NCBI GenBank assembly: GCA_016931385.1
Contig: JAFGEV010000058.1
Coordinates: 1 to 37,082 of the forward strand
Length of the DNA stretch: 37,082 nt
Direction of reading: 5' to 3'
DNA from: Prolixibacteraceae bacterium
Lineage (GTDB): Bacteria; Bacteroidota; Bacteroidia; Bacteroidales; Prolixibacteraceae
The first letter of the stretch is position 1. Every line of letters starts with the position of its first letter. This document shows, in pieces, positions 8,859 through 33,588 of the stretch. The translations under genes and the position numbers were made by a program. The notes beneath the pieces were generated by a model. The model had not been told where the DNA came from. It worked only from the letters and a program-made list of their open reading frames with translations, and did not search any database.

Positions 8859-8875
8859 TTGATTCAAATATATCT

Positions 8876-9586: not shown

Positions 9587-9677
9587 TAATTATGGCAGAA
9601 GTAAACAGGCAGAAGTTTTTTTGAAAGTGGCAACTTGAAATTTTAAAGATTTTTAAAACATCATAATTTCAAATACA

Positions 9678-9929
9678 ATGAAATCATTTATCCCCATTGT
9701 GTTGCTGTTTATCCTAGCTACCTCATGCTATTCCAGGCGTCCAATATTTTCAGACAGGCCTGCAAACAACAAAACCTACGAAGTAGAATACCTTTTTGAA
9801 TACGATGGCTGTAAGGTTTACCGCTTTTACGACAATGGCAATTATGTTTATTTCACCAATTGCCGGGGCGAGGCAATCAGTTTTTCAAACGATTCGATCA
9901 ATACCAGGATTGTGAATCATGTAAGGTAG
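9678..9929 (+). CDS. Small lipoprotein, DUF4884-like
   Basis: This 83-residue protein starts with a lipoprotein signal, MKSFIPIVLLFILATSC, with Cys17 as the lipidation site. The remainder (YEVEYLFEYDGCKVYRFYD, then YVYFTNCRGEAIS) has two cysteines that may form a disulfide in the periplasm. The pattern is that of DUF4884, a small Bacteroidota family without known function. It is on the same strand as the YebC-family gene, and the convergent LytTR regulator ends just beyond it. Confidence 0.75.
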   Translation: MKSFIPIVLLFILATSCYSRRPIFSDRPANNKTYEVEYLFEYDGCKVYRFYDNGNYVYFTNCRGEAISFSNDSINTRIVNHVR

Positions 9930-9969
9930 GGCTGATTGTTAACCTTTGAAACAAATAGAAAAATCATTT

Positions 9970-15031: not shown

Positions 15032-18000
15032 ATGAACCATTTTTTACTTACAATTGCCATTGCCCTGCAGTTGGTTACTACTGCAAACGCCCCGGCAATA
15101 AATGAACCAGACACCTCATCTGAAATATCTCTTATCAGTGGAAATTGCCTAATACGACAGATTGAAAATCCTGAAAATAAATCATTGATGCAAGAAGATA
15201 TCAAAGAGCCCAAATGGAAATTTAAAACAGGGGGCAGGATTACAACTTCGCCTGCCATTGCCGATGACGGCACCATCTATGTTGGCAGCGACGATGAAAA
15301 CCTTTATGCTTTAAACCCTGATGGGACTATGAAGTGGAAATATTTTACCGATGAAAAAATTACTACCTCACCGGTTGTTGGTATCGACGGAACAATCTAT
15401 TTTGGCAGTAATACATACCTTTTTGCATTAACTACCGATGGAGAAATTATATGGAAAAAGTCTGATTATGGAAGAATCTTTTCCACCCCGGCCATTGGCA
15501 ATGATGGAACACTATATGTGGGAAGCACCAATGACTATTTATATGCAGTCAATACTGACGGAAGCAAGAAATGGCAATATTATACATCGGGCGACGCAAC
15601 ATCTTCACCTGCCATTGGCAACGATGGCACCATTTACGTGGGCAGTGAAAATAATAGCTTATACGCGATCACTCCTGAAGGGAAATTAAAATGGAAATAT
15701 TTAACTGATGCTCCTGTTTTCTCCTCTCCTGCTATAGGAATTGACGGCAAAATTTATGTTGGAATCAACAATAAAGTTCTTCGTGCAATCACTTTAGATG
15801 GAAAGAGTGCATGGAGGATGGATAGTTATTATGATTTCTCTTCTCCTTCTGTTGGCATGGACAATATTATATACATTGGAGAAGGTAATAGTATTCTGTC
15901 AAAAGATCGAGACGGATCATTTAACTGGAATTATTATACCGACGGGGCCGTCACTTCCACACCGGCCATTGGTAAAAACGGTACAATTTACGCGGGCAGT
16001 AACGATAAAAATATATATGCATTGACGCGCGAAGGGGAGTTGCTTTGGAAATACACAACAGGCGGCCCTGTTAATTCATCACCCGCGATAAACTCAGGAG
16101 GTACGGTATTCGTGGGTAGTAATGATGGTTACCTGTATGCATTTCAGACCGACAACGGGGGGCTGGCCGATACGCCGTGGCCCTGCTTTCACAAAGACAA
16201 TAAAAACCTGGGGAACATAAATTACAGCGAACAATATCCTGTTACCGCCTGCTTTTCTGTATCACCTAAGTCTGGTTTTTTCCCACTGGAAGTTCAGTTT
16301 ACCGATACATCAAAAGGAGAAATTACCTCCTGGTTATGGGATTTTGGTGATGGTGCAAACAGTAATGAACAAAATCCCCTGCATACTTATTCCGAAGAAG
16401 GAAACTTCGGTGTAAAACTAACAGTGTCTAATGAAGAATATACTCATTCCCTTTATAAAGATAATTATATTAAGGTATACGATTCGCTGAAAATTATTCC
16501 TGATTTTACAATGGATATTGAAGAAGGCCCAGCTCCTCTGAACGTAAAATTTTCTGACACCTCCATTGGAATCCCAACCATTTGGAAATGGGTATTTGGA
16601 GATGGCGATACCAGCACCATCCAAAATCCTGAACACATCTTTGAGCATCCGGGCTCGTACCTGGTTATGCTTATCGTATCAAACGAATATCAGACCGACA
16701 GCATCGTGAGAGAAATTGTAACGACAGAAAAGTGGAAAATTCAATCTTCTGAATCCTTTGCCTGCCCTGCAATTGGTGACGACAACACTATTTATATCGG
16801 AAATTACAACAAATATTTCTATGCAATATCACCTGAGGGAACGGTTAAGTGGAGACGTGCTATGGACTGGGGTGTCGCCAGGGCTGCAGCCATTGGCACC
16901 GACAGTACAATTTATGTCGATGACGGATATCATCGCATTAAAGCATTGTCTCCAGACGGATCATTGAAATGGGATTATGATTTACACGCTCACATTAACG
17001 CTTCACCGGTTATAGGCAACGACGGTACCATTTTTGTAAGTTGTGATGAACAATGCTTTTATGCATTTTCTCCAGACGGATCATTAAAATGGAAATTTCA
17101 AACTGAAAAGAGTTTTTCATCCTCTCCCGCTGTTAGCGGTGATAATACAGTTTATATTGGCAACCTGGACCATAACTTATACGCAATTTCATCTGACGGG
17201 ACATTGAAATGGAAATATTTAACTGAAGGCTGGATCTATTCTTCTCCTGCGATTGGATGCGATGGTACACTTTATTTTGGAAGCCAAGACAAGTATCTTT
17301 ATGCAATTTCACCTGACGGAGCTTTAAAATGGAAAATTTACCTTGGTAGAATTACTTCGTCACCTGTCATTGGAAGTGATGGCACCATTTACATAGGAAG
17401 TGAAAATGATAAACTTTATGCTATAACACCCGACGGGGAACAAAAATGGGAATTTTCAGCTGGAAGCAATATAGTATCGACACCGGCTGTTGGCAAAGAC
17501 GGAACAATATACTTTGGCAGTTGGGACAAATATTTTTATGCCCTGTCTCCCGATGGAAGCTTAAAATGGAAGTATCTGACAGGAGGCTATGTGGGATCAC
17601 CGGCCATTGGGAAAGATGGTACTGTATATGTCGGCAGTACTGATCGCAAATTCTACGCTTTTTCTACTTTTAACGGAGGCCTGGCGAACTCACCTTGGCC
17701 TTGCTTTCTTCAGAATCCAAAAAATACAGGCTATTTGGATATTACAAGTTTACACCTACCTGCTTCAGATTTTTCATCCAACACATCTGAAGGAGGTTTA
17801 CCATTACAGGTTCAATTCATTGATAACTCAACCGGGGATATATCGGGTTGGTTATGGGATTTTGGAGACGGTGAAAGCAGTGTAGAACAAAATCCGGTTC
17901 ACACTTATATGGCTGAAGGTACTTACACTGTTTCGTTAGCAATAACAGGTTCAGGTAGCAGCGATATTGAAGTAAAAAACGGATTTATCAATGTAATAAC

Positions 18001-18259
18001 TGTTAATGTTAACTTGTTTGGAATTTCCTCTACAATTACAATTTCCCCTAACCCAACAACCGGAATCCTGTATATTAAAGGACTCCCTTCCGGCAGAGGA
18101 ATTGATATTTCAATTTATAATATTATGGGACAGCAAATCAAGAATGTGAGAAGCTTTGGCTCATTTGAAAGTTTTGATATTTCAAACTTTGAAAGAGGTA
18201 TTTATTTTATCCAATTCAACAATAATCCAAAAAATACAATAAAGATCCTTAAAGAATAA
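15032..18259 (+). CDS. Secreted double PQQ-like propeller / PKD protein with T9SS sorting domain
   Basis: The 1075-residue product begins with a signal peptide ending ANA (about 20). Residues 62-390 hold eight ~40-residue repeats of the form WKY-x-T...SSPAIG-DGTIYVGS...LYAISPDG, as in PQQ-like/BamB-type propellers. Two PKD domains follow (about 402-485 and 490-565; WLWDFGDG and WKWVFGDG). A second set of eight repeats occupies 568-880, then a third PKD (about 910-990; WLWDFGDG). A T9SS type A domain ends the protein (about 1000-1075; ISPNPTTGILYI, ISIYNIMGQQI, RGIYFIQF). It should be exported across both membranes and anchored or released at the surface. No catalytic residues are evident; binding or adhesion is plausible. 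It is monocistronic. Confidence 0.93.
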   Translation: MNHFLLTIAIALQLVTTANAPAINEPDTSSEISLISGNCLIRQIENPENKSLMQEDIKEPKWKFKTGGRITTSPAIADDGTIYVGSDDENLYALNPDGTMKWKYFTDEKITTSPVVGIDGTIYFGSNTYLFALTTDGEIIWKKSDYGRIFSTPAIGNDGTLYVGSTNDYLYAVNTDGSKKWQYYTSGDATSSPAIGNDGTIYVGSENNSLYAITPEGKLKWKYLTDAPVFSSPAIGIDGKIYVGINNKVLRAITLDGKSAWRMDSYYDFSSPSVGMDNIIYIGEGNSILSKDRDGSFNWNYYTDGAVTSTPAIGKNGTIYAGSNDKNIYALTREGELLWKYTTGGPVNSSPAINSGGTVFVGSNDGYLYAFQTDNGGLADTPWPCFHKDNKNLGNINYSEQYPVTACFSVSPKSGFFPLEVQFTDTSKGEITSWLWDFGDGANSNEQNPLHTYSEEGNFGVKLTVSNEEYTHSLYKDNYIKVYDSLKIIPDFTMDIEEGPAPLNVKFSDTSIGIPTIWKWVFGDGDTSTIQNPEHIFEHPGSYLVMLIVSNEYQTDSIVREIVTTEKWKIQSSESFACPAIGDDNTIYIGNYNKYFYAISPEGTVKWRRAMDWGVARAAAIGTDSTIYVDDGYHRIKALSPDGSLKWDYDLHAHINASPVIGNDGTIFVSCDEQCFYAFSPDGSLKWKFQTEKSFSSSPAVSGDNTVYIGNLDHNLYAISSDGTLKWKYLTEGWIYSSPAIGCDGTLYFGSQDKYLYAISPDGALKWKIYLGRITSSPVIGSDGTIYIGSENDKLYAITPDGEQKWEFSAGSNIVSTPAVGKDGTIYFGSWDKYFYALSPDGSLKWKYLTGGYVGSPAIGKDGTVYVGSTDRKFYAFSTFNGGLANSPWPCFLQNPKNTGYLDITSLHLPASDFSSNTSEGGLPLQVQFIDNSTGDISGWLWDFGDGESSVEQNPVHTYMAEGTYTVSLAITGSGSSDIEVKNGFINVITVNVNLFGISSTITISPNPTTGILYIKGLPSGRGIDISIYNIMGQQIKNVRSFGSFESFDISNFERGIYFIQFNNNPKNTIKILKE

Positions 18260-18735
18260 ATCATTCGAAAACATTTCAACTGCGAGCAAATATCCAAATG
18301 CTTTGAAATTATCTTTGCAAAAGGGTATAATCTATCAATACCCGAAAAATGGTCTCCGCAAAAAGTATGAAATATGGAAATACTGGAAATACATTTTTCG
18401 AAAAAGTTTTTGGATCAATAATTCCTGAAAGGATAGGTTTGTTGGGCGGTTCGACAAAATAAATTAAATTCCAATCATAATCCCGATTGTTCAGAACTAA
18501 TAACAAATTACTTGTACCTGGAATAAATCTGAGATTTTCTGACGAAGCGCCACTTCATTCCGGTCTTAGCTGTTCTCCCAGTGACGATAATTGTAAAAAT
18601 ATTCCCATCAGAAAAGAAAATTAGCCTTTATTGGGAAAATTTTACCTCTCGTGCAATAATTCTGCTTCATTTTCAAAATTAACTACACAATAAAAGTGAT
18701 GCGATCGGTATACTTTGGTAAATAAACCAAAATTT
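18260..18735. other. Intergenic region with a short ORF and promoter-like box
   Basis: The 476 bases between the propeller gene and susC hold a TATCTTTG box (18310-18317) followed by a 37-codon plus-strand ORF from 18349 to 18462 (MVSAKSMKYGNTGNTFFEKV...). On the minus strand a 65-codon frame (18309-18506) covers the same stretch, so the ORFs exclude one another. Neither is recognisable. The rest is AT-rich leader before susC, with TATACTTTG at 18709-18717 as a poor -7 candidate. Confidence 0.4.
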
Positions 18736-21700
18736 ATGAGAATTCTAATGAAACCATTAAAAACAAATTCAAAAAATGACCTGATTACAAACACTTTCAG
18801 AACCGGAATAATTTCAATATTGCTTATTATTTGTTCTGTTTCTGTTTTTGCGCAAAATAAAGTGGAAGGTCTGGTCAGGGATAACGAGAATCAACCTCTG
18901 GTTGGCGCTACAGTTGTCATTAAGGGAACCAATACCGGAACGGTAACAAACCAGGATGGTATGTTCAACATCAATGTTCCCGACATGAACGATACACTGT
19001 CAATTTCGTTTATCGGTTATCTGAAAAAGGAGATTGCAATCAAGGGGAAAAGCAGAATTGAAGCGGTATTGGTAGATGATATTGCCAATCTTGATGAAAT
19101 AGCAGTTATCGGTTACGGCACTCAGAAAAAAAGGGACATGACCGGCGCAATATCAACAATTGATAACGAAAGGTTGAACGACATTCCTGCAACAAACCTG
19201 ACAGGAGCCCTGCAGGGATCAGTTGCCGGGCTTAGTATCAATACAGCATTCGGAACACCCGGGAGAGGATCTGATATTCTGATACGGGGAATAAAATCGT
19301 TAAATGCGTCAAATAATCCATTGATTGTTATCGATGGTATACCGGGTGGTTCTCTCGACGATATCCATCCTGGCGATATCGATAAAATTCAGGTTTTAAA
19401 AGATGCTTCTGCCACATCAATTTATGGTTCAAGGGCATCGGCAGGCGTTATTATTGTAACCACCAGGAGTGGAAAATCGGGGAAAATAACAGTCAATTAC
19501 AACGGTTACTATGGGTTTTCATATGTGGCAAACAAAGTAGATGTTTTATCTGCTGAAGAATACGTGGCAAAGAAAAGAGAAATTTATCGTATGGAGAATT
19601 CATCCATGCGCTATGAAACATTTATGAGCTACGACAGCTCTCTGACAATTCCTATTGAAAACATATTGGCCGGGAATGAACTCGAAATGTATAATATGGG
19701 AAAATCGTACAACTGGCTTGATGAAATTACACAGGAAGCGCCGATACAAAGTCACAACATTACGCTGTCAGGAGGAGATGAAAAAACACAATATTTCTTC
19801 TCGGCAAGTACAGTTGATCAAACAGGTATTATACGTAATTCGGGATTTAACCGCAATTCAGTCCGTGCCAATATTTCAAGCAAGTTCACCGATTGGTTAA
19901 AGATCGGGACGAATGTTATGTTCTCAAGATCGATACAGGATCAGATACCCGATGGGATTTTCATATATACTTACCAGCTTAGCCCTTTAGGGAAAAAGTA
20001 TGAAGACGAGGAGAATCCCGGTGATTATACACTCTATCCCATGTATCCTGACGAATTCATTGCCAACCCGTTTACTGAAATTGAAATTATTGATAAAAAT
20101 CAAAGGGATAAATTTTTGAACAGCACTTTTATCGAAATATCTCCAATCGACGGATTAACATATAAGTTTACAGTTAATACGGTAGCGGATAATTTTAAAA
20201 ATAATCATTTTGTCCCTTTGAACACACGACAGGTACTGGCCTTTGATAAAGCAGAGAATGCCTCAATAACATATGAGGACAGAACTACTGTTAACCTGGA
20301 AAACTTATTGATTTACAATAAAAAAATTGGCAAACATGCATTTACAGGAACATTTGTTTTTACTACAGAAGAATATCAAAGAAATGGCTTATGGGCATAT
20401 GGACGTAATTTTGGCAGTGATTATTACCAATGGACCGCACTTCAGTATGGCCAGGTTGACTTTAGAGATCTTTCCAGCTTTGAGGAAAAATCGTACCTGG
20501 TATCATACATTGGAAGGCTGAATTACAATTACAACAGCAAATATCTTGTTCAGTTATCATTGCGGGATGACCAATCCTCAAAGTTCAGTAAAGAGAACCG
20601 GAACGCATTATTCCCCGGGGTTTCGCTGGGGTGGAATATCAGCGAAGAAAACTTCTTAAAGGGTAACAATACAATAAATAATTTAAAGCTCAGGTTATCG
20701 TGGGCCAAAACCGGAAACCAGGCAATTGGTTACCGTGACCGGTTCAACACCGGTACAAAGGTGTATTATACCACCGGCCAGGATGGGCTTGGGTCGATTG
20801 TTGAAGGCTTGGTTCAGACATCGCTTGCCAACAAAGACCTTAAATGGGAAATATCGACCGAAACAAATATCGGACTTGATTTCCAGTTGTTTAACAGCAG
20901 GATATCAGGTACTGTTGAAATGTATAAAACCCTTACAACCGACCTCCTCTGGAACCAGGCAATAAGCCCGATAACAGGTTTTACATCTATCAGGAGCAAC
21001 ATTGGCAGCCTTGAAAACACAGGTCTGGAAGTATCGTTGAACGGACTTATTATAAACAGTTCAGACCTGACATTAAAATGTTATGCAACGTTTTCGACCA
21101 ATAAGAACAAAATCATTGACCTTGACGGAACAAAAACAGATAATGTTACCGACAGGTTGTTTATTGGAGAACCTGTTGGTGTTGTATACGACTACGTATT
21201 CGATGGTATCCTGCAGGAAGGAGAAGAACCGCCTGCGGCTATGCCCCTTCTTATAGCAGGAGAAGTAAAAGTCAAAGATACCGGGAGTTTTGAAGTACTT
21301 GAAGATGGCAGCCAGGTTCGAACCAATGTACCTGACAGTGTGATTAATGAAGCCGATATGCAAATAATCGGCCAGATACATCCAAAATGGTACGGAAGCA
21401 TCGGATTTACACTTACATATAAGAATTTCGACTTCTCAGCCTTTGTTAACCATGTACACGGAACAACCCGAAGGATTCCAATTAATGTTTCAGACAGGCC
21501 TCATGCGATGGACATTCCCTACTATACCGATGAGAAACCAAGCACCCAGTACGGCAGGCCAAGCTGGCCAAAAAACCTTGGAAGGGCTGGAAACCAGTAC
21601 GGATACCTTTCGTATTATGTCGACGGTTCGTACACCAGACTACAGGATATTACCCTCGGGTACAGTCTCTCAAACAACTATCTTACCAGAATCGGAATCA

Positions 21701-21870
21701 GCCGTGTGCGGTTATATGCCACAGGGCAGAACCTGTTTACCCTAACCGATTATTTAGGTTATGATCCTTCTTTTGAATATACGAATAACCAGACAAGCGG
21801 ACGTATTGACAGGCTTAGGGGGTATCCCACTATTAAAAACCTGATTTTCGGCCTTAACGTAACATTTTAA
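18736..21870 (+). CDS. SusC/RagA family TonB-linked outer-membrane transporter
   Basis: This 1044-residue outer-membrane channel imports oligosaccharides with its SusD partner. After a signal peptide ending VFAQ comes a carboxypeptidase-regulatory-like domain (about 45-125; VEGLVRDNENQPLVGATVVI). The segment LDEIAVIGYGTQKKRDMTGAIS follows, then the plug domain (about 135-250; LIRGIKSLNASNNPLIVIDG, IQVLKDASATSIYGSRASAG). The rest is the 22-strand barrel, ending in a terminal aromatic strand (LIFGLNVTF). I start at the ATG at 18736 (MRILMKPLKTNSK); ATG 18748 is equally possible, and an upstream TTG is unlikely. The susD gene follows after 24 bases. The transported glycan cannot be told from sequence. 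Confidence 0.97.
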   Translation: MRILMKPLKTNSKNDLITNTFRTGIISILLIICSVSVFAQNKVEGLVRDNENQPLVGATVVIKGTNTGTVTNQDGMFNINVPDMNDTLSISFIGYLKKEIAIKGKSRIEAVLVDDIANLDEIAVIGYGTQKKRDMTGAISTIDNERLNDIPATNLTGALQGSVAGLSINTAFGTPGRGSDILIRGIKSLNASNNPLIVIDGIPGGSLDDIHPGDIDKIQVLKDASATSIYGSRASAGVIIVTTRSGKSGKITVNYNGYYGFSYVANKVDVLSAEEYVAKKREIYRMENSSMRYETFMSYDSSLTIPIENILAGNELEMYNMGKSYNWLDEITQEAPIQSHNITLSGGDEKTQYFFSASTVDQTGIIRNSGFNRNSVRANISSKFTDWLKIGTNVMFSRSIQDQIPDGIFIYTYQLSPLGKKYEDEENPGDYTLYPMYPDEFIANPFTEIEIIDKNQRDKFLNSTFIEISPIDGLTYKFTVNTVADNFKNNHFVPLNTRQVLAFDKAENASITYEDRTTVNLENLLIYNKKIGKHAFTGTFVFTTEEYQRNGLWAYGRNFGSDYYQWTALQYGQVDFRDLSSFEEKSYLVSYIGRLNYNYNSKYLVQLSLRDDQSSKFSKENRNALFPGVSLGWNISEENFLKGNNTINNLKLRLSWAKTGNQAIGYRDRFNTGTKVYYTTGQDGLGSIVEGLVQTSLANKDLKWEISTETNIGLDFQLFNSRISGTVEMYKTLTTDLLWNQAISPITGFTSIRSNIGSLENTGLEVSLNGLIINSSDLTLKCYATFSTNKNKIIDLDGTKTDNVTDRLFIGEPVGVVYDYVFDGILQEGEEPPAAMPLLIAGEVKVKDTGSFEVLEDGSQVRTNVPDSVINEADMQIIGQIHPKWYGSIGFTLTYKNFDFSAFVNHVHGTTRRIPINVSDRPHAMDIPYYTDEKPSTQYGRPSWPKNLGRAGNQYGYLSYYVDGSYTRLQDITLGYSLSNNYLTRIGISRVRLYATGQNLFTLTDYLGYDPSFEYTNNQTSGRIDRLRGYPTIKNLIFGLNVTF

Positions 21871-21894: not shown

Positions 21895-24015
21895 ATGAGA
21901 AAAATAGTTTATATAACCTATATAGTCCTGTTTGCCTTTGCATTATCAGCCTGCGAAGATAAACTTGACATTGTCCCCCGCGATTTTGTAAATACCGATG
22001 GACTGTTCTCGAATGATCCTCAGGTTTTGTCTGGAGCAGTAAATGCCATTTTTGAAGAATGGTTCGACAGAGGCCGAAACATTGATGCCTGGGGCCCCTG
22101 GGAACACGTGGGGACCGACCTGGCTACATACGATGAATACCGCTATGAAGAAAAACCGAACTCAGAGTTATATTGTTACTATGACACCAGGATGAATCCC
22201 GAAGCAGATGCAATCAGCCGGCTCTGGAATTTTGAATACCGCATAATAAATAACGCTGCACGAATTATCCAATCAGGCAAGAATGAATCGATTGTTGACG
22301 ATCCGGTTGCTCAAAAGGCTGTATCGGAAGCGAAGTTTTTCTGGTCGCTTGCATACTATGAACTTTTCATGAATTTTGGAGATGTTCCAATGTTGATTGA
22401 TCCGGTTGATGGCCCCCGTGATGATTTTGAACGGACGCCCGTTGAAGAGATTATTCCGGTTATTGAGCAATATATGTTAGAGGCTATTGAAGTGCTGGAT
22501 GAAAATACATCGGATGCCCGTGTCAGTAAAAATGCCTGCAGGATGCTGTTGGCAAAAGTATATATGGCTGCAGCCGGTGATGTTTATCAGACACCGGGTG
22601 AAGTAGCCGGGGCTAATTCATCATACTGGCAAAAGGCGGAAAGTATTTCAGAAGATATTATCTCATCGGGGACTTTCGAGCTTATATCACAAAAAACTGG
22701 GCCACATGCCAATGACAACGATACGATACCCGGGCCGGTTAACTGGAACCTGGCAGGTTTTCCGGCTATGCGTGAAGGATTGCAGCAAAAATACATGGTG
22801 AGGCACCCGAATTATATCTCCTGCTTATTCCAAAACGACTTTGAAGGGCCTGAACAGGGAAACACCGAAACAATATTCAGGATTGCCTTTAACGGTCAGG
22901 ATGATGCATACGGAAGAAACTACATCAGGCTAATATGGATGCCATATATCTTAAGAGCAAACGGAATAGCCAGGGATTTTTATCAAGGTGGCAGAACCTG
23001 GGGAAGGGTAAAATTAACTGACTATATGTGTTACGACATATGGGATTACAAGGATTACCAAAGAGGAAAAAATTATGACCTGCGTAAGGAAGGTGGGTAC
23101 ATGCACCGATACTTTTTTAACGATGAGGGTGCACTGAAAGATCATTATCTCTATGTCCGAAGGTTCAGCAATCCCAACGAAGGTGTAGACTCATTATATG
23201 GATGGAGGCCGGCTAAAGCCGATCCGCCAACGACCAGGGCAGGAAAAACCGGCACAATAGTATACAATGAACCCATTCCGTGGGGTAAAAACGGTGACAA
23301 GTATTTTACGGCCGATTACCTTGTTGTAAACGAGGATTCCGTTTTTGTTCAACCGATTGTTACAAATTATGCTGGCGCCCCGGGCAACAGCAAATGGGGA
23401 ATCCCTTATTTTGAGGAATGGTTCCCGAAAAGAGTATTTCACAAAGGAGATACCATTTGGGGGCCACGGCCGGGTGATGAATATTTTCCAAGATCACAGA
23501 TTGACTGGCAATCAACTGCCATTGGTTGTACCAAACAGTCGTACTGGGTAAGAAACACCGAAGGGACAGCCCTCTCTCAGGAAGAAGTATCTTCCTTTGT
23601 CGGCTCTTCAGGAGGCCCGGGGGATATCATCCTTTTCAGATATGCCGAAGCATTCCTGATTGCCGGTGAAGCCGAATTTCACCAGGGAAAAACACAGGAA
23701 GCTGCCGATCATTTTAATGTTATCAGAAGAAGAGCTTTCAACAATGGAAATGTTCCTGTGAAATGGCAGGTTGATCCGGGCGAGATCACAATTGACTGGA
23801 TACTTGATGAAAGAGGCAGGGAATTGTTTACCGAAGAATTCCGCTGGTTTGAAATCAAAAGGTTGAAAAAATGGGACAGGGTAATGAATTACAATATCCT
23901 TGCAGCACCAAATTTTGACTATTCAAAACATCGGCTGCGCCCGATTCCATTATCGGTTATTGATGTGAATTATGGAAACCCGGCAGGAATGTTTCAGAAT
24001 CCGGGCTATAACTAA
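21895..24015 (+). CDS. SusD/RagB family glycan-binding lipoprotein
   Basis: This surface lipoprotein caps the SusC channel. Signal MRKIVYITYIVLFAFALSAC gives lipidated Cys20. The SusD N-terminal region (DKLDIVPRDFVNTDGLFSND) and TPR-like helices (AVSEAKFFWSLAYYELFMNF, NACRMLLAKVYMAAAGDVY) are clear. The C-terminal region has the family pattern ILFRYAEAFLIAGEAEFHQG...FNVIRRRAF...WILDERGRELFTEEFRWFEIKR and ends RPIPLSVIDVN..NPGYN. At 706 residues it is longer than the usual 500-600, with extra loops around 280-560 that probably shape the glycan site. It is co-transcribed with susC. Confidence 0.97.
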   Translation: MRKIVYITYIVLFAFALSACEDKLDIVPRDFVNTDGLFSNDPQVLSGAVNAIFEEWFDRGRNIDAWGPWEHVGTDLATYDEYRYEEKPNSELYCYYDTRMNPEADAISRLWNFEYRIINNAARIIQSGKNESIVDDPVAQKAVSEAKFFWSLAYYELFMNFGDVPMLIDPVDGPRDDFERTPVEEIIPVIEQYMLEAIEVLDENTSDARVSKNACRMLLAKVYMAAAGDVYQTPGEVAGANSSYWQKAESISEDIISSGTFELISQKTGPHANDNDTIPGPVNWNLAGFPAMREGLQQKYMVRHPNYISCLFQNDFEGPEQGNTETIFRIAFNGQDDAYGRNYIRLIWMPYILRANGIARDFYQGGRTWGRVKLTDYMCYDIWDYKDYQRGKNYDLRKEGGYMHRYFFNDEGALKDHYLYVRRFSNPNEGVDSLYGWRPAKADPPTTRAGKTGTIVYNEPIPWGKNGDKYFTADYLVVNEDSVFVQPIVTNYAGAPGNSKWGIPYFEEWFPKRVFHKGDTIWGPRPGDEYFPRSQIDWQSTAIGCTKQSYWVRNTEGTALSQEEVSSFVGSSGGPGDIILFRYAEAFLIAGEAEFHQGKTQEAADHFNVIRRRAFNNGNVPVKWQVDPGEITIDWILDERGRELFTEEFRWFEIKRLKKWDRVMNYNILAAPNFDYSKHRLRPIPLSVIDVNYGNPAGMFQNPGYN

Positions 24016-24205: not shown

Positions 24206-24745
24206 ATGAACATTATGAATTTTCAGCACTATTTTTCAAAAAAAGTTCTGATTTTTATATCGGTTGCAGCTTCATTCATATTTGCAATATCGTGTAGTAA
24301 GAAAGATATGGTTGACCCTTTCTGGGGAATTAACCTCCGTTGGGACAAAGAAACCGTCTTAAACATGCTTTACGAAAGCTCGATAAATGGGAATATTGAA
24401 AACTGTGTATTTTCATTCTACAAGGTATATTTTATTACTGATACAAAAATGAATGCTCGAATCAAAGCTACACTGAATAACCCGGCTTTCGAAAAAAATG
24501 AAATTAAATCACTTGATTATTCGCTTGTCGCACAATTTAAGAATGAAACCACTGCAAAATTCAATACATTTTTCTTTGATTATTTTATGACACAGATGTC
24601 AAGCGCCTACGGTAAAAAATACCTCGAAAATATTGAAGGCGATACGATATTCCTAACCTGGAATAATGAAAAGGGAATAGTAATTAAGGCCACAATATTT
24701 AGGGATATCAATAGTTACAATGTGTCAGTGAAACTGAAAAACTGA
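24206..24745 (+). CDS. Lipoprotein of unknown function in the PUL
   Basis: The 179-residue protein has a lipoprotein signal ending AISC (Cys30). After it comes a mature part with WGINLRWDKETVLNMLYESS near the start and mixed alpha/beta content. I recognise no domain. It lies between susD and the hybrid sensor, 46 bases before the latter, and so may share its transcript. A MITE-like element separates it from susD. PULs often carry surface glycan-binding lipoproteins at this position, but those are usually larger and this one has no carbohydrate-binding motif that I can see. Confidence 0.7.
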   Translation: MNIMNFQHYFSKKVLIFISVAASFIFAISCSKKDMVDPFWGINLRWDKETVLNMLYESSINGNIENCVFSFYKVYFITDTKMNARIKATLNNPAFEKNEIKSLDYSLVAQFKNETTAKFNTFFFDYFMTQMSSAYGKKYLENIEGDTIFLTWNNEKGIVIKATIFRDINSYNVSVKLKN

Positions 24746-24791: not shown

Positions 24792-27700
24792 ATGGAAACA
24801 GCTAAGCTAATTAGGCCATATTATGCCAAAATTCTTCTGTTTTTGATTTTCGGAATCCTGCTTTTTGCTCATCAGAAGCTGCATGCTAACTCTGAGCAAT
24901 TATCATTTAATCATCTTTGGGTAGAAGACGGGCTATCGCAAAGCACGGTTTTTGCCATTTACAAAGACCAGAAAGACCTGATGTGGTTCGGAACCCGGAG
25001 AGGATTAAACATGTATGACGGTTACCAGTTTACACAATACATGCATAAAGTCGATGATCCTCAAAGCCTGACATCGAACCTGATATATGCAATTATTGGA
25101 GATAAAAAAGACAATCTTATTATTCAAACTGATAGCTGTTTAAATTATTACGACAGGTATAAAGATGAATTTTCCGTGATCCGGGGAAATGAGTTTTTCT
25201 GGAATATGATTAAGGACAAGGAAAACAATATCTGGGCGTGTTCATATTCCGGGCTATTCATTTTCAACGAACAGGAGAAGACGTTTGATCCTGTTGAAAA
25301 CAAAATCCCGTTTGTTGAATTGTACGACCTTGTTTTGGATAAACAATCGAATATTTGGATAACCGGACCGGGTAAAATCATAAAATACAGCCCAGCTGAC
25401 CGAAAATCAAAAACCTACAATTTGCCAGCCAATGATGAAAACGAGAATAACCGCCTTTTTATTGAAACCGATGAAAGAGATGTGGTATGGGTTTGCAGCA
25501 GGTACGGGGAATTGATGTGTTACAACAAAGAAGATGACGCATTTTGCAAACCTGGATATTATACCAAGTTTGAAAACCTGCTGGTCAGCAGTTTTGGAAA
25601 AGGCCTCAATAACACAATTATAATTGGAACCGACGGAACAGGCATAATACAAATTAACACGGTTACAAATGAGATCAAAATTCTCAATCACAACCCTGAT
25701 ATTGAAGAAAGCCTGTCGAGCAACACCATTTATTCAATTTTGGCTGATACCAAACTTGGTATTTTGTGGCTTGGTTCATATATGGGCGGTGTCGATTATT
25801 TCTCACATTACAATAAAGGGTTCAAATTCATTTATCATGAGCCTCACAACCGGAAAAGCATAATTAACAGCAACGTCAGGAGTTTATTTATCGATACTGA
25901 GAATAACATATGGGTAGGAACACGGCAAGGCTTATCTGTCCTCGACTCGTTGCACAACCTGATTTATGAATTTTCGCAGGAAACCTTATTTGCCGCAGGC
26001 ATTATCAATCCAATTATTACCGACATCTGGATGGATAAAAAAGGCTATGTATGGATAAGCTCATACAAGGGTGGCTTGGTATTGTTTGATCCATCAACAA
26101 AGAAACTGGCAAAACTGAACACAATCTATCCTGAAATAAACATACCCGAAAACCTTGGCATATTTGATGTATTGGCCGATAGCAAGAAGAACATATGGCT
26201 GGCAACCGAACAGGGAACGTATATGTTTCCTTTAAACAAAAAAGGATTTGTATTCAATACCGATTTTTCAAAGAAAATTATTGAAGACCGGGCTGGAAGA
26301 ATTTTTATCGGTTCGGTCAATAACGGGCTCCTTCATGTTAACAACAATTCGTTGCAAATATTACCTGTTTCTTTTAACACGCTCATCCAATCCGAAAGGA
26401 TAAAAAGGATCAATACCCTGTTTGAAGATTCTGAAGGATACATTTGGATTGGCACAGGTGGCTTCGGTATTATCAGATATAATCCAACCAGCAACCAAGC
26501 ACAAATTTTTACCTCCGAGAATGGCTTGCCCGATAACAATATTTCAGGTATCATCGAAGATAAAAACAAAACAATCTGGGTAACCACCTACACTGGGGTT
26601 GGAAGATATTTAAAGGGCAATAGCGAATTTAAGCATGTATACCTTGAAAAAGGGATTATTGGAAAAGAATTCAATCCAAATTCGATTGATATTGCCACTA
26701 ATGGAATTATATATGCAGGAAGCATAAATGGCTTGCTAACTTTCAATCCGGATTATTATAACGAAAACCCATTTTTACCTGAGGTAATTTTTACCGGGCT
26801 GTATGTTAACAAAAAAAAGCAGAAAACCGACAGAAAAAATATCCCCGTTAAGCAATCAATATTATTCTCGGAGAAAATAGCCCTAAAATATTTTCAAAAC
26901 TCTATCGGGATTACTTTCACTGCACCGGAATATTATTTAGGCGACAAACTAAATTTTTATTACAAACTGGATGAAAAAGATAAATGGAATGAACTGGGAA
27001 ATAACAGGTCTATAAATTTTGTTAACTTGAAACCGGGAGATTATCTGCTGACAGTACGAGCAGAAAACTCTGACGGATATTCCAAAATCGAGGGTACAAC
27101 CTTAAATATTCATATCGATCCACCCCCTTGGAGAACGAACCTTGCCTATATCTGTTATACCATATTCTTTGCAGGATTTCTGATTTTGATCAGACAACTT
27201 GTTAAAATGAGGTTAAACCTAAAATATCAGATACTTCTGCAAAAGGCTGAAAAAGACAAACAAACTGAGATAAATCAGGCCAGGGTCAAGTTATTCACTG
27301 ATGTGTCCCACGAAATTGGAACATCCCTAACATTGCTGAATATTCCTCTTGAAACACTTAATAACATTGAGGCAGATGATCTGAAAAAATACTACCTGTC
27401 GATAATCAACAAAAATGTACATCGATTAAAACACCTGGTTAAAAGAATAATCAACCTTAGAAAGATTGAAACCGGCAACATGCCTTTATGCGCAGAACAG
27501 GATGACCTGGCAGGTTTCATAAAAGCCATTTGTATTAATTTTGAATCGATTGCCAGGAAAAAAAACATCAGCTTTGTCCGCGATTTTCCAATCGAAGATA
27601 TTTCAACCTGGTTTGATAAGGAAAAGATTGAATATATCTTGTATAACCTGCTGTCGAATGCCTTCAAATTTGAGCCTGAAAATGGGAAAGTGTGCATTGT

Positions 27701-28874
27701 CCTTTCCAAAGTAAACAGCGCCATCAATGGAAAATACGGAAAAATTATTTCAATAAAGGTAAACAATGCCGGAAGTGCTATACCGCCGGATAAGGCAGAA
27801 TATATATTTGAAAGATTTTATAAAGATAATTATAGCAGCTTCGGATCAGGTATAGGCTTAAGTCTTGCCAGATCGTATGTTGAAATACATAAAGGAGAAA
27901 TTGATTTTACTTCAGAAAAAGAAAACGGGGTCACTTTTGAAGTAAGGATTCCTTTTGGTGAAAATTACCTGCTTCCAAACGAAAAAATTATTACAGACGC
28001 GGCTTATGAACCAAAAATTCAACAATATCTCGATATTGAGAATGAAAACGATTATGTTCGGAATGAAAACGAAAAGACCAATCTAAATAAGATACTTATA
28101 GTTGAAGATAATATTGAATTAAAACAATTGCTCAGGGAACAGTTATCTGACAAATATAAAGTAATTGAAGCTGGAGATGGAGACGAAGGATTGATAAAGG
28201 CAAAAAGTTACCTGCCCAATCTTGTTATCACTGATTTAAAAATACCCATCGTCAATGGGCTTGAATTATGTCTTTCGATAAAAAAGGACCTGGACATTGG
28301 GCATATTCCTGTTATAATCTTAACAGCGAAAGAAGAATTAGAAGATCAGATCAGGGGAATGGAAGCCGGTGCTGATGCGTATATAACAAAACCATTTTCG
28401 ATGCAATATCTTCATTCGGTTATTAAGAACCTTATCGAATCAAGGGAAAAACTCAGGCGAAAATTTATTTCAGGTTTAAGTACTACAGATGAAAAAATAG
28501 ATATCCCATCAATGGATGAACACTTTCTTGAAAAAGCGTATACCGTGCTTGAGGAAAACATGGATAACCCCCAATTTGGAATTCCCGATTTCATTGAACG
28601 GCTAGGTATCAGCAAATATATGTTGTACACAAAAATAAAAACACTAACCGGACTAACACCTAATGACTTTGTGATAAACTACAAACTCAAAAAGGCAGCC
28701 CATATCCTTAAAGAAAAAGAAATAAGCGATATGGACCTTTATTACAAACTTGGATTTAATGATGTTTCCTATTTCAGAAAATGTTTCAAAAAACAATTTG
28801 GGCTTACCCCCTATCAATTCGTAAAATCGAATAAATTCAATGAGCATTCTGGTTTCACAAAGGGTAATAAATAA
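24792..28874 (+). CDS. Hybrid two-component system sensor/AraC regulator (HTCS)
   Basis: The 1360-residue one-protein regulator spans the inner membrane. A signal/anchor (about 10-30) precedes about 12-14 two-component-propeller repeats (about 35-690; e.g. EDGLSQSTVFAIYKDQKDLMWFGT, DSEGYIWIGTGGFGIIRY). A Y_Y_Y domain (about 715-775) and a membrane helix (783-803) follow. The kinase has an H box with His840 (FTDVSHEIGTSLTLL), an N box near 950 (NLLSNAFKFEP) and a G box (SGIGLSLARSYVEIHKG). A receiver domain (about 1100-1215; Asp1148 in VITDLKIP) and an AraC HTH (about 1260-1355; KYMLYTKIKTLTG, YYKLGFNDVSYFRKCFKKQF) complete it. It should sense an oligosaccharide in the periplasm and activate susCD. 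The H box departs from the usual HEFRTPLT. Confidence 0.96.
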   Translation: METAKLIRPYYAKILLFLIFGILLFAHQKLHANSEQLSFNHLWVEDGLSQSTVFAIYKDQKDLMWFGTRRGLNMYDGYQFTQYMHKVDDPQSLTSNLIYAIIGDKKDNLIIQTDSCLNYYDRYKDEFSVIRGNEFFWNMIKDKENNIWACSYSGLFIFNEQEKTFDPVENKIPFVELYDLVLDKQSNIWITGPGKIIKYSPADRKSKTYNLPANDENENNRLFIETDERDVVWVCSRYGELMCYNKEDDAFCKPGYYTKFENLLVSSFGKGLNNTIIIGTDGTGIIQINTVTNEIKILNHNPDIEESLSSNTIYSILADTKLGILWLGSYMGGVDYFSHYNKGFKFIYHEPHNRKSIINSNVRSLFIDTENNIWVGTRQGLSVLDSLHNLIYEFSQETLFAAGIINPIITDIWMDKKGYVWISSYKGGLVLFDPSTKKLAKLNTIYPEINIPENLGIFDVLADSKKNIWLATEQGTYMFPLNKKGFVFNTDFSKKIIEDRAGRIFIGSVNNGLLHVNNNSLQILPVSFNTLIQSERIKRINTLFEDSEGYIWIGTGGFGIIRYNPTSNQAQIFTSENGLPDNNISGIIEDKNKTIWVTTYTGVGRYLKGNSEFKHVYLEKGIIGKEFNPNSIDIATNGIIYAGSINGLLTFNPDYYNENPFLPEVIFTGLYVNKKKQKTDRKNIPVKQSILFSEKIALKYFQNSIGITFTAPEYYLGDKLNFYYKLDEKDKWNELGNNRSINFVNLKPGDYLLTVRAENSDGYSKIEGTTLNIHIDPPPWRTNLAYICYTIFFAGFLILIRQLVKMRLNLKYQILLQKAEKDKQTEINQARVKLFTDVSHEIGTSLTLLNIPLETLNNIEADDLKKYYLSIINKNVHRLKHLVKRIINLRKIETGNMPLCAEQDDLAGFIKAICINFESIARKKNISFVRDFPIEDISTWFDKEKIEYILYNLLSNAFKFEPENGKVCIVLSKVNSAINGKYGKIISIKVNNAGSAIPPDKAEYIFERFYKDNYSSFGSGIGLSLARSYVEIHKGEIDFTSEKENGVTFEVRIPFGENYLLPNEKIITDAAYEPKIQQYLDIENENDYVRNENEKTNLNKILIVEDNIELKQLLREQLSDKYKVIEAGDGDEGLIKAKSYLPNLVITDLKIPIVNGLELCLSIKKDLDIGHIPVIILTAKEELEDQIRGMEAGADAYITKPFSMQYLHSVIKNLIESREKLRRKFISGLSTTDEKIDIPSMDEHFLEKAYTVLEENMDNPQFGIPDFIERLGISKYMLYTKIKTLTGLTPNDFVINYKLKKAAHILKEKEISDMDLYYKLGFNDVSYFRKCFKKQFGLTPYQFVKSNKFNEHSGFTKGNK

Positions 28875-28956
28875 GGGCAAATTATCTTTTTGCATAACAA
28901 TAATCATCTAAAACAATATTCCTACACACCATCTTAAATTTTCAGATAAAGCCTTC

Positions 28957-29103
28957 CTACATGGAATCGGGGATCGTAAATTGCCCCCTCAACCTAATAT
29001 CTTCCGATGAACTTCCGACGAATATTTCAAACACTCCGGGCTCAACTACACGATCCATTTTTTCATTAAGAAGTGAAAATTGATCGTATGGAAGGAAAAA
29101 ATC
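28957..29103 (-). pseudogene. Out-of-frame C-terminal end of the GH3 gene
   Basis: The minus strand just past the GH3 stop, read in the frame one base away, encodes 48 residues: DFFLPYDQFSLLNEKM, DRVVEPGVFEIFVGSSSEDI, then RLRGQFTIPDSM and a stop (28957-28959). This is the end of the fibronectin-III-like domain that closes GH3 enzymes (VVEPGxFxIxVGxSSxDI). Dropping one base, for example 29104, joins it to the main frame as EEKI-N-DFFLPYDQ. It is therefore a frameshifted piece of the neighbouring gene and not a separate one. Confidence 0.8.
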
Positions 29104-31375
29104 AATTAATCTTTTCTTCTCCCTTCTCTAAATGAATCCTCTCAAAACCTCTGAGCTGCTTTTCATACACGGTAACACTGCTCACCAAATCGCTGAAATA
29201 AAGCTGCACAATTTCATCCCCTCCATGTTCACCCGTATTTTTAATTTTGAATGAAACATGTACTTTTTCGTCTCCTGCCGAAGCCGGTTGTTCAATATTC
29301 AAATCAGAATATTTAAAGGTTGTGTAGCTTAATCCGAATCCAAATGGATAGAGGCAGTCGAGTACTCTCGACCTCACATTTCCTTGTCCTGCATGTGCAC
29401 TTGGTTTGAAAGGGAATGCAAGGGGTATTTGCCCTATCGTTTTCGGAAAAGTTATCGGAAGTTTACCTCCGGGATTATAATTTCCAAAAAGCGTATTGGC
29501 AATAGCTTCAGCACCGAATTCTCCTGGAAACCATGCCTCAATGATTGCAGGAACATTCTTATCTGCCCAATTAACAGTAACCGGCCTTCCATTAATTAGC
29601 ACCAATACAATTTGAATTCCTGTGCCGTGTAAGGTTCTTAAAAGTTCTTCCTGGTAGCCCGAAAGGTTTAAAGAAGTCCGCGACATACTTTCACCAACAG
29701 TTCCAGGTTCATCTCCTAGTACAACAATGGCAATATCAGAGATTTTTGCCAATGCTACTGCTTCGTCAATCAGCTTTTGCTCTGAAGCCTGAGGTGAGGT
29801 GTAATACAATTCAAGTTCGAGCCAGTTATCGGGTTGAACAGAACAACCTTTTGCATATCGGACCTGTGAACCTGGCTTTACTTTTCTTTTGAAAGCTTCA
29901 AGTAAACTTTCAGTTTCAACATTATTGGGTCCATACCGGCTCATTGAATACCTTGTATCGGCAGCATTCGGCCCAACAATCAGATACGATTTGAATGAAT
30001 CTTTTTCGAGTGGTAAAAAATTATTCTCATTTTTCAGTAGCACCAACGACTCGTACGATGCTTTTTTTGAAAGTTCAACGTTTTCGGGTGACCTCACAAT
30101 TATGTTGGCCTCATCAGGATCTTTTATGAACGGATGATCAAAAAGCCCGAGATGAAATTTAATTCCTAGTATTTCTCTTACCCTCTGATCGACAACTTCC
30201 ATTGAAATTGTCCCTTCATTGATAAGTTCCCTGAGAGGCTCAACATAAACCTCCGGAGAGGTAAAATTGGTACGTATGTTCAAACCAGATTCTACACACT
30301 GTTTTATCGCATCCTTATAACTTTCAGCCACCTTATGTTTTGTAAAAAGATATTCAACAGCATCGCTGTCAGATACAACATACCCTTTGAATTTATATGT
30401 ATCCCTCAACAATTCGGTAAGAAAATAGTGACTTCCCGTAACCGGTATTCCATCGTAGTCGTTATATGAACTCATTACCCCCAGGGCGCCTCCCCTTAAA
30501 AAAACCTGCTCGAAAGGATAAAGGTTGATGTTATGCATTTCGCGCCAGGTAACCTGGGGGTCTGTTCGTGCTTCTCCATCCCTGCCGCCTGAAGGCACAC
30601 TGTAAACAGCGAAATGTTTAGGGGTTGAAACGACATTTTGCTCCTGAATACCCTTTGTAATTTTAACACCAAGCTCTGCAACCAGATACGGATCTTCTCC
30701 CATGCTTTCAACTGTTCTGCCCCACCTTGGATCGCGAGCCAGATCGAGGATCGGAGCATATACATTTGTGTATCCGAGAGCCCTGGCTTCTTTACCAATA
30801 ACTTTGCCCATGTTGTAAACAAGCGCTTTGTTCCACGTACTGCCAATGCCAATATTGGCCGGGAACATGGTAGCCCTGTCGTGGGCCAACCCCCTGATCC
30901 CCTCAACTGTAAAATCAACAGGTATTCCCAGTCGTGTATTTTCAATAAACCACTCCTGGATTATATTGATCGCTTCTGCATGATTTGAAAAAGGATAAGA
31001 ATATTCTGTTTTTGTTGTCGATTTGAAAGTTGTGTTGTTCAAATGTTCATCGATATTACCAATGCCATCTTTCCATAATTCATTCTTCCATCCGGGTGTT
31101 GGTAATTCATCCTGCAATACCCGCCCATATCCGTAAAGCGTTACCATTTGGCAGGTTTTTTCTTCGAGTGTCATTTGTGACAACAAATTCTCAATCCGGT
31201 CTTCAACGCTTTCTGAACTGTCTTCAAAAATATCAAGCTTGCCATTTTTATTAAAATCAATCCAGCCGACTTTATAAACATCATTATCTTTCACCTGTGA
31301 AAATATAAGGCAAGTTGTTAAGAAGTTAGTGCATATAATCGTAAAAGCTTTCTTCAAAAAAATCGTTTTTATCAT
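29102..31375 (-). CDS. Glycoside hydrolase family 3 (beta-glucosidase-like), frameshifted near its end
   Basis: This 757-residue enzyme probably removes terminal beta-linked sugars from oligosaccharides in the periplasm. A signal peptide ends near IFSQ. A Ca-binding-like loop (DFNKNGKLDIFED) follows, as in many Bacteroidota GH3s. The (beta/alpha)8 domain has MTLEEKTCQM, TPKHFAVYSVPSGGRDGEAR and the nucleophile Asp336 in GYVVSDSDAVEYL. The second domain has LLKNENNFLPL and VVLGDEPGTVGESMSR, where Glu562 is a candidate acid/base. The fibronectin-III-like domain is cut at EKGEEKIN by a frameshift; the missing end lies at 28957-29103 and restoring it gives about 805 residues. ATG 31375 is chosen because position 31381 is TTG. 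It converges on the HTCS gene. Substrate is undetermined. Confidence 0.93.
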   Translation of the reverse strand: MIKTIFLKKAFTIICTNFLTTCLIFSQVKDNDVYKVGWIDFNKNGKLDIFEDSSESVEDRIENLLSQMTLEEKTCQMVTLYGYGRVLQDELPTPGWKNELWKDGIGNIDEHLNNTTFKSTTKTEYSYPFSNHAEAINIIQEWFIENTRLGIPVDFTVEGIRGLAHDRATMFPANIGIGSTWNKALVYNMGKVIGKEARALGYTNVYAPILDLARDPRWGRTVESMGEDPYLVAELGVKITKGIQEQNVVSTPKHFAVYSVPSGGRDGEARTDPQVTWREMHNINLYPFEQVFLRGGALGVMSSYNDYDGIPVTGSHYFLTELLRDTYKFKGYVVSDSDAVEYLFTKHKVAESYKDAIKQCVESGLNIRTNFTSPEVYVEPLRELINEGTISMEVVDQRVREILGIKFHLGLFDHPFIKDPDEANIIVRSPENVELSKKASYESLVLLKNENNFLPLEKDSFKSYLIVGPNAADTRYSMSRYGPNNVETESLLEAFKRKVKPGSQVRYAKGCSVQPDNWLELELYYTSPQASEQKLIDEAVALAKISDIAIVVLGDEPGTVGESMSRTSLNLSGYQEELLRTLHGTGIQIVLVLINGRPVTVNWADKNVPAIIEAWFPGEFGAEAIANTLFGNYNPGGKLPITFPKTIGQIPLAFPFKPSAHAGQGNVRSRVLDCLYPFGFGLSYTTFKYSDLNIEQPASAGDEKVHVSFKIKNTGEHGGDEIVQLYFSDLVSSVTVYEKQLRGFERIHLEKGEEKIN

Positions 31376-31790
31376 ATTCAAAACTGGTTTAACGGATTAT
31401 CTGCTTCTGAAAAAATATTCATGATTTAAAAGGGCAATACAATCGTTTATCTTGTCATTGATATCCAAATATTCAATACTCTTTAATGAAACGTCTCCTG
31501 ATAAAATTATTGAAACAAGCATTTTTTGAGATATTGAATTATCTTAAAAAACAAGCATTATAAATCAATGAAGGTAATTTTTTCCTATTCAGGTTATATT
31601 ATCCTCTTTTATCCGCTCAGCCCTCTCAGGCTTATTAACCAAATTCAATGCTAAACCAACATAGCGGGTCATGGCACGTGTTGCATCAATTGACAACTGG
31701 TGCATGATGGAATCAACATCGGTGGGTTATCCGTTATTTCATCTGTTAGTTAATTATTTCAACTTTGCTGTATACTGGTAATTCATATCC
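31376..31790. other. Intergenic region between GH3 and hydrolase genes
   Basis: This 415-base stretch is the GH3 promoter region (left part, AT-rich, no clear TAnnTTTG box) plus a short coding-like frame at 31589-31705 that is listed separately. I see no further structure. Confidence 0.5.
31589..31705 (-). CDS. Short ORF or gene remnant, unknown
   Basis: This minus-strand frame of 38 codons starts at ATG 31705 and reads MHQLSIDATRAMTRYVGLAL, then NLVNKPERAERIKEDNIT. The same frame is open for about eight more codons upstream (to an in-frame taa), continuing PTDVDSI before the Met. The amphipathic, charged composition looks like real protein, unlike the surrounding AT-rich DNA. I do not recognise it. 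It may be a small protein or the 3' end of a deleted gene. Confidence 0.3.
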   Translation of the reverse strand: MHQLSIDATRAMTRYVGLALNLVNKPERAERIKEDNIT

Positions 31791-32639
31791 TTACTCTTTT
31801 AAAAATTGTAAAAAGCGTTCAGTTTGATTGATTAACACATGCCCGGTATTTTCCAATACCACACACCGGACATTCCCAAGGTTATTTTCTATGCGTTCGG
31901 CTGTTTTTTGTGAATTGTAAAAACAGTCATGCTCACCGCCTATGAATAATACAGGCGCTTCAATTTGTTTCAGTTGCTCATCGGAAAAAACAGGAAAAAC
32001 TTCGGTTCGCGGGTTGTAGTGTTCCTTTATTAAGGCGGCAAACTCAAGCGCCCGTTCATCAATTTCAAGAGCCCCGTAAACCAGTTTGTCCAGTTTTTGC
32101 ATGCCCCACTTTCCTGCTAACGAGGTAAAAATTATCAACAACACAGCTTTGGGTTTAATTGGTGTAATACCTGCTGTTGCCATCAAAACCAGGTGATCAA
32201 CCCTGTTGGGATGTTTTGTTGCAAAATCCAGGGCAACCCACCCCCCAAGCGAACATGCAATAATCGACACCCGGTTTAACCCGAGGCTTTCAACAATTTC
32301 CAAAAGCCAGTTGGCATAGTTTCCATCTTTAAATTCAGGCCGTGTTTGTGCACTTTTTCCACATTCACCAATGATATCGATGGCAAAAACCCGATACTTC
32401 TCCGAGAGTGTTTTAGCATCGGAAATCCACATGGCCGAGTTGGAAACCGAACCATGCAACAAAAAAACTGCTGGTGCATTTCTATCACCACTTTCAATAA
32501 TGAAAGTATTTCCATAACTAGTGTTAAAGGTGTATTGCTTCGAGGGCCTACACCATTCAGTTAGCAATTTTTCGTAAAAAGTAAGGATCGCTTTTTTACC
32601 CTCTTCCGATTTGTAAATTGATTTCTTTGCCATTTCCAT
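31791..32639 (-). CDS. Alpha/beta hydrolase
   Basis: The 282-residue cytoplasmic enzyme has the alpha/beta fold with oxyanion motif FLLHGSVSNSAMW (about 59-71). The nucleophile Ser130 sits in the elbow ACSLGGW, followed by Asp238 in FIGGEHDCF and His267 in ENTGHVL, so the triad is complete. No signal peptide is seen. I start at ATG 32639 (MEMAKKSIYKSEEG); ATG 32675 would add 12 residues. It is the last gene of the minus-strand cluster, 64 bases after the LRR gene. Substrate is unknown; esterase, lipase or C-C hydrolase are all possible. Confidence 0.9.
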   Translation of the reverse strand: MEMAKKSIYKSEEGKKAILTFYEKLLTEWCRPSKQYTFNTSYGNTFIIESGDRNAPAVFLLHGSVSNSAMWISDAKTLSEKYRVFAIDIIGECGKSAQTRPEFKDGNYANWLLEIVESLGLNRVSIIACSLGGWVALDFATKHPNRVDHLVLMATAGITPIKPKAVLLIIFTSLAGKWGMQKLDKLVYGALEIDERALEFAALIKEHYNPRTEVFPVFSDEQLKQIEAPVLFIGGEHDCFYNSQKTAERIENNLGNVRCVVLENTGHVLINQTERFLQFLKE

Positions 32640-32703: not shown

Positions 32704-33588
32704 TCACCTCATAACAAGAATCCCTTTTTTTCTAAGCAATTGAATTTGTTCCTTCGGAACGGGGTTTCCAAGCAAATTGACATATTCCAGGTTTTCAAGA
32801 TCAAATAACGGGCTGATGTCATCTACAGCGTTGCCCGATAAATCAACGATTCTCAGGTTCGTCAGGTTGCTTAATACATCGATATAGCCAATTTGGTTTT
32901 CTGACAGGTACAATTCTTCCAAATTCCGCAGGTTCCACAAATTGCCGATATCGGAAATGGAATTATCCGAAACATCGAGGATTTTCACATGCGTGCAATA
33001 TTCAACTCCATCCAGCGATTCCAGCCCCAAGCCGGCCATTTCAAAATCTTCAAAATCTTCGAGGTAATAAGTTGGAAATTCAACATCTAACTTTCCGTAT
33101 TCCCTGATTTTTATTGCGTTGAAAAACGATTTCTCAAAATCGAATACATCTGCATAATCATCTTCCCCATCTTCCTCGTCGGAACCTGCATAACCAAAAC
33201 CCTCCATATCTTCGTTGTCCCAGACATATTCGGGGCTGTACCCGATACTTTCGTCAATAACATCAACCGAAACCGCATCAATATCGGACAACAACAAAAT
33301 ATGGGAAAACTTTCTCAGTCCATCGTAGTTGTTCTGCTCATAAAGCTGCTGTATCTGTTTTTTGATGTATTCACCTTTGTCGGGGTGATAAAGTACAATC
33401 AGTTTAGAAAAACAGCGGGCCTCTTTTTCTTCGTTAATAACCACGTATTCAGAAACCTTATTGGCAAGAGCCCTGATTTTTGAGTAGTTCCTGCTTTTGT
33501 AAAGCAAAATCAGTTTGCCCGAAATCCGGTTTAAGTTTTCCAGGGAATACGCTTCCGTCAAATCGCGGTACAATTCTTTGATGGTCAT
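32704..33588 (-). CDS. Leucine-rich-repeat protein
   Basis: The 294-residue protein has no signal peptide. Residues about 1-110 form a helical N-terminal region (LYRDLTEAYSLENLNRISGK, QIQQLYEQNNYDGLRKFSHI). A strongly acidic stretch follows (about 130-150; DNEDMEGF, SDEEDGEDDYADVF). The C-terminal third holds about four to five leucine-rich repeats of ~22 residues (VKILDVSDNSISDIGNLWNL, LEELYLSENQIGYIDVLSNL, LRIVDLSGNAVDDISPLFDL, LEYVNLLGNPVP). Such repeats bind proteins; the partner is unknown. Its ATG overlaps the stop of the HSL-type hydrolase (33585-33588), which implies coupled translation. Confidence 0.85.
   Translation of the reverse strand: MTIKELYRDLTEAYSLENLNRISGKLILLYKSRNYSKIRALANKVSEYVVINEEKEARCFSKLIVLYHPDKGEYIKKQIQQLYEQNNYDGLRKFSHILLLSDIDAVSVDVIDESIGYSPEYVWDNEDMEGFGYAGSDEEDGEDDYADVFDFEKSFFNAIKIREYGKLDVEFPTYYLEDFEDFEMAGLGLESLDGVEYCTHVKILDVSDNSISDIGNLWNLRNLEELYLSENQIGYIDVLSNLTNLRIVDLSGNAVDDISPLFDLENLEYVNLLGNPVPKEQIQLLRKKGILVMR

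Follow-up and report, generated by a model that had tools for sequence, protein, structure and literature searches.

Does the GH3 glycosidase gene of this polysaccharide-utilisation locus carry a genuine frameshift of recent origin, or does the draft assembly hold one base too many? The gene lies in a 37,082-nucleotide stretch of DNA from a Prolixibacteraceae bacterium (contig JAFGEV010000058.1), which we analysed at its full length and call the window; the features of the locus are collected in Table 1.

Table 1. Features of the SusC/SusD/GH3 locus, in positions of the window.
Feature	Position	Strand	Content or basis
GH3 glycosidase ORF as found	29102..31381	-	759 aa/codons; listed start TTG, ATG two codons on; GH3 N domain, GH3 C domain and first half of Fn3-like domain (Pfam)
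Premature TGA of GH3 ORF	29104-29102	-	Sequence read
Stretch of the net +1 base in the GH3 gene	29104..29110	-	Alignment to relatives
Lost GH3 C-terminal tail, neighbouring frame	28957..29103	-	48 sense codons + TAG; second half of Fn3-like domain, PF14310 34-71
SusC/RagA outer-membrane transporter, intact	18715..21870	+
SusD-family lipoprotein, intact	21895..24015	+
179-aa protein	24206..24745	+	No Pfam match; 42% identity to sister-locus counterpart
Hybrid two-component regulator, intact	24792..28874	+	Convergent with GH3 gene

A Fn3-like domain divided between two frames

The initial annotation described this gene as broken by a single-base frameshift near its C-terminus, with the next 48 codons of the neighbouring frame encoding the end of the Fn3-like domain and with no other stop in that tail, which reads as intact protein; our analysis bears out each part of this description. 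The ORF reads ...FERIHLEKGEEKIN at its C-terminus (ending LEKGEEKIN*) and then meets the TGA. The neighbouring frame has no stop between TAG 29130-29128 and TAG 28959-28957, and is open from 29127; counted from 29103 it contains exactly 48 sense codons, including VVEPGVFEIFVGSSSEDIRLRG, and its translation is ...SLLNEKMDRVVEPGVFEIFVGSSSEDIRLRGQFTIPDSM. The Fn3-like domain (PF14310) is split over these two frames: the in-frame piece covers profile positions 1-35 of 71 in Pfam, and the out-of-frame piece, which alone matches the model with an E value of 9.2e-6 and is well above chance, covers positions 34-71. The identical two-piece split comes out when the Fn3-like model is run against the whole genome, and the gene has no complete Fn3-like domain in a single frame. 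Used by itself as a query, the tail piece finds the same position in relatives (tblastn; best E value outside the window 2e-11). In the closest relative, a locus that we call the sister (L032), the tail match begins at base 8272, directly after the last base of the body match (8271) and in the same frame.

The stops bound the shift between the tail-frame TAG at 29130-29128 and the in-frame TGA, and alignment to relatives puts it after the Lys codon 29113-29111 and before completion of the hydrophobic codon 29106-29104. Judged by conservation, and at the level of a region rather than one base, the net one-base excess lies at about 29104-29110. Two points of the first description, given for 28957-29110, need correction: the minus strand encodes the gene, and 28957-29101 belongs to the lost tail, outside the called ORF. 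No homopolymer at the shift site is longer than two bases. We rejected slippage in a T6 run as the cause: the in-frame stop lies upstream of the T6, and this run therefore cannot be the shift site. The possibility that the tail is a separate small gene was also rejected, since the first ATG in the tail frame comes only at 29058, within a conserved stretch, and since the tail homology continues the GH3 body.

Both catalytic domains are present: the GH3 N-terminal domain (PF00933) with an E value of 1.7e-58 over profile positions 38-314 of 316 (37-314 in the sister), and the GH3 C-terminal domain (PF01915) with an E value of 2.7e-50 over positions 1-200 of 200. D338 and E564, which we take to be the catalytic nucleophile and acid/base, are invariant in an 11-sequence alignment. 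The top-scoring NCBIfam models, none of which reaches its cut-off, are beta-xylosidase/arabinosidase, beta-xylosidase and BglX, and the closest solved chains by sequence are the xylosidases 7zb3 and 8c7f.

Relatives at the break point

We searched 61 genomes (the window's own, and others of its genus, family and order) for GH3 genes, and obtained matches at E values up to 1e-50 in 53 of them. For 30 genomes, that of the window included, the best matches were made into loci, and a scan of genome contigs contributed 23 further loci; the remaining GH3 matches lie outside the residue-by-residue read-through count. Two loci that are copies of the window (L001 and L002) were excluded from the relatives, and two others that stop short of the break point (L044, at a contig end, and L045) are outside the count. 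A first listing held 48 relatives with a match reaching query residue 740 or beyond, 47 of which read on for at least 45 residues; two relatives absent from that listing (L049 and L050) were checked individually and read through. In total, 49 of the 50 relatives that reach the break point continue past it by at least 45 residues, and the other (L021) runs off its contig there. A frame break at this point is absent in all 49 readable relatives: in the comparison with relatives that the initial annotation had proposed, none ends at the same shortened point. The only other genome of the genus compared offers no close orthologue (best GH3 match 36%, second 38%).

The GH3 relative of Carboxylicivirga marina N1Y132 (L045, 6001-7143) has a peculiarity of its own. 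It is in frame from the N-terminal domain to the tail's last ~15 residues, its N-terminal part ends at approximately query residue 390, and about 400 internal residues look as if they were missing, through either a real deletion or an assembly collapse.

Tail identity between the window and the sister is 50%, against 72.6% for the body. We rejected this low value as a sign of decay, since intact pairs show an equal ratio: a regression over all pairs of 21 intact relatives (residual s.d. 0.076) predicts a tail identity of ~0.54 at a body identity of 0.72, and the window-sister pair is within one residual s.d. Compared with 20 outgroups, the window tail has a mean identity of 0.404 and the tail of the intact sister one of 0.431 (0.543 and 0.556, respectively, for the body); the window tail is the more distant of the two from 13 of these 20. 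In its fit to the 21 intact relatives the window tail scores 91.4, with a leave-one-out range of 85.8-122.4 for the relatives themselves, three of which score lower than the window; in simulations of neutral change, 0.1 substitutions per site take about 25 off the window's score. Among 11 tail columns in which at least 80% of relatives share one residue, the window keeps nine, and the two losses are I for V and F where 21 of 21 relatives have L. With a ps of 0.77, window and sister are saturated at synonymous sites. Set against the body, the tail has about the conservation that intact pairs show, without clear decay, and there may be a mild excess of change in it. Since relatives read through and the tail is without clear decay, the shift is either far younger than the split from the sister, or not real.

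The sister locus and the truncated product

The sister is carried on a contig of 40,392 bases (G061:C80) of the MAG Bacteroidales bacterium Zod_Metabat.688, and shares with the window the gene arrangement SusC-SusD-179 aa-regulator-GH3. Its GH3 protein is 72% identical to that of the window over query residues 1-758 and is intact, at 807 aa in our reading and with the Fn3-like domain complete (E value 6.3e-21, profile 1-71), whereas that of the window is broken. Identities for SusC, SusD and the hybrid regulator (propeller, HisKA, HATPase, receiver and AraC-type HTH domains) are 74%, 81% and 60%, respectively, and these genes and that for the 179-aa protein each align to the sister in a single unbroken segment.

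Between GH3 and regulator the sister has a PL11 rhamnogalacturonan lyase gene (8619-11570) that also carries lectin and secretion domains, whereas the window has only 82 bases (28875-28956) from the tail's stop to the regulator's stop, in which a terminator and promoter scan of 28700-31800 listed no terminator-like site. Elsewhere in the window's genome there are two PL11 matches, ~36% identical to the sister's PL11. A PL11 homologue on G000:C171 had been reported with a TGA inside the match; it is not broken, and ends naturally there. We saw no PL11 or other locus genes beside GH3 in the other 22 loci (L003-L011 and L033-L045), within short flanks of about 1.5 kb or less for the former and at most 6 kb for the latter. 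The window's locus is without the lyase gene of its sister, and the ancestral state may be either.

The GH3 enzyme had been called the only hydrolase of the locus. By Pfam it is the sole glycoside hydrolase, but two alpha/beta-hydrolase genes lie beyond it; of the 35 window ORFs with at least 100 aa the scan covered 25, and the remaining 10 overlap scanned ones in other frames or repeat one. The two alpha/beta-hydrolase genes flank a gene for a 294-aa leucine-rich-repeat protein (32704-33588). On the far side, adjoining the SusC gene, 15032-18259 encodes a 1075-aa protein in which Pfam finds PQQ/BamB-like propeller repeats, PKD domains and a Por secretion-system C-terminal sorting domain.

We modelled the intact sister protein (10 sequences; mean pLDDT 67, with means of 65-95 for the Fn3-like blocks). 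In this model the Fn3-like domain has seven strands (689-697, 707-715, 721-731, 742-751, 756-763, 782-789 and 795-803), and the break corresponds to approximately residue 758: four strands are kept, the fifth is interrupted shortly after it begins, and the last two are gone. The truncated product is therefore predicted to keep both catalytic domains and about four of the seven Fn3-like strands. Some GH3 enzymes lack an FnIII domain altogether (PMC6987092), and in the GH3 enzyme GlyA1 truncation of a different C-terminal domain made activity about 5- to 20-fold lower on the substrates shown (PMC5104943). It is plausible that the product here is unstable or weakly active. GH3 activity need not disappear with this gene, since at least four more GH3 genes are present in the genome.

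Explanations for the frame break

We infer that the shift is probably real and recent, a mutation that is either fixed or carried by the assembled strain, and not an error of the consensus. The GH3 beta-glycosidase gene of a SusC/SusD/hybrid-regulator locus would have gained a net +1-base frameshift; translation would then end at the UGA just after the fourth Fn3-like strand, with loss of the last ~48 residues (most of strands 5 to 7), and the product would be destabilised or weakly active even though catalytic domains and conserved positions stay, making this an early pseudogene or a truncation allele. Against this, the draft data would be explained equally well by an error in the local consensus or by a variant from a minority strain.

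An assembly or consensus error, in which the living organism's gene is intact and the draft has one extra base, is the serious competitor, possible though the less probable of the two. The draft genome comprises 448 contigs and is 86% complete; the tail frame is stop-free over 48 codons, and a tail without clear decay would be expected from an error too. On the other hand, the site is not in a long homopolymer, and breaks of this kind were sought elsewhere in the same assembly. We scored 53 of 80 first-look SusC candidates in the window's genome (a sample, not a full census): 33 matches span the family model (100,443 bases), eight more are cut solely by contig ends (13,053 bases; ends seen, or a match starting within 61 bases of the contig start), and the remaining 12 are short N-terminal matches of other proteins. 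There is no frame break in any of the 41 SusC genes or edge-cut pieces. Nine of ten Fn3-like domains in this genome are whole, the tenth being that of the broken GH3 gene; in the congeneric genome G001, where all candidates were scored, nine of nine are whole. The absence of breaks from 41 SusC sequences and nine Fn3-like domains indicates that indel errors are not common in the assembly.

We also ran a hexamer frameshift scan. Its first version gave no candidates in the window's genome and two in G001; its second gave 20 in 260,566 bases of the window's genome and 39 in 399,924 bases of G001, of which three and one, respectively, had no ATG nearby. When four of the 20 (the three without an ATG and one other) were run through Pfam, none had the same family on both sides, and two had no family on one or both sides. 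The scan is weak evidence, as it misses the GH3 break itself (tail score 0.7, threshold 4); the case for a low error rate therefore comes from the SusC and Fn3-like counts.

Taken with the read-through in relatives and the undecayed tail, the lack of breaks in the two families surveyed agrees with the original view that the shift is either very recent or an error, with the balance tilting somewhat towards a real recent mutation and away from an assembly error. In annotation, the gene should be flagged as frameshifted and, for now, kept out of the evidence for an active or naturally short GH3 enzyme. If the mutation is real, it marks an early stage in the decay of a single catalytic gene, while the rest of the polysaccharide-utilisation locus is intact.

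Bacterial release factor 2 is made by programmed +1 frameshifting at a UGA. The GH3 break is also at a UGA, and a +1 step there gives the right spacing to the conserved tail; recoding of this type would yield some full-length enzyme. Beyond a UGA stop at the right place nothing favours it: the break is peculiar to the window among the readable relatives, the codon before the UGA is AAU, which would re-pair poorly one base on, and the features that make the release factor 2 site prone to shifting are not evident. A literature search combining programmed frameshift, glycoside hydrolase and Bacteroid found no report. We consider such frameshifting very improbable, and it is just as hard to credit that +1 recoding makes both truncated and full-length GH3, which would be a new use of recoding in polysaccharide utilisation. 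That the shortened enzyme is a selected, functional form is likewise highly unlikely: both catalytic domains are present and GH3 enzymes without an FnIII domain are described (PMC6987092), but a half domain with ~4 of 7 strands in the sister model would hardly be a stable end point, the lost tail shows no clear decay, and the frame is kept in the 49 readable relatives.

Whether recent or artefactual, the frameshift is of an ordinary kind, as is the gene, and it involves no new mechanism. Recent frameshift pseudogenes of bacteria typically have a single small indel, a remainder that has not decayed, and relatives that read through; the GH3 gene of the window shares all of these traits, and nothing that we tested differs. 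Compared with the three-domain GH3 type (barrel, sandwich and C-terminal FnIII-like domain, as in BglX-like beta-xylosidases/beta-glucosidases), it shares the GH3 N and C domains and the first half of the Fn3-like domain, whereas the C-terminal half of the latter is out of frame and lost.
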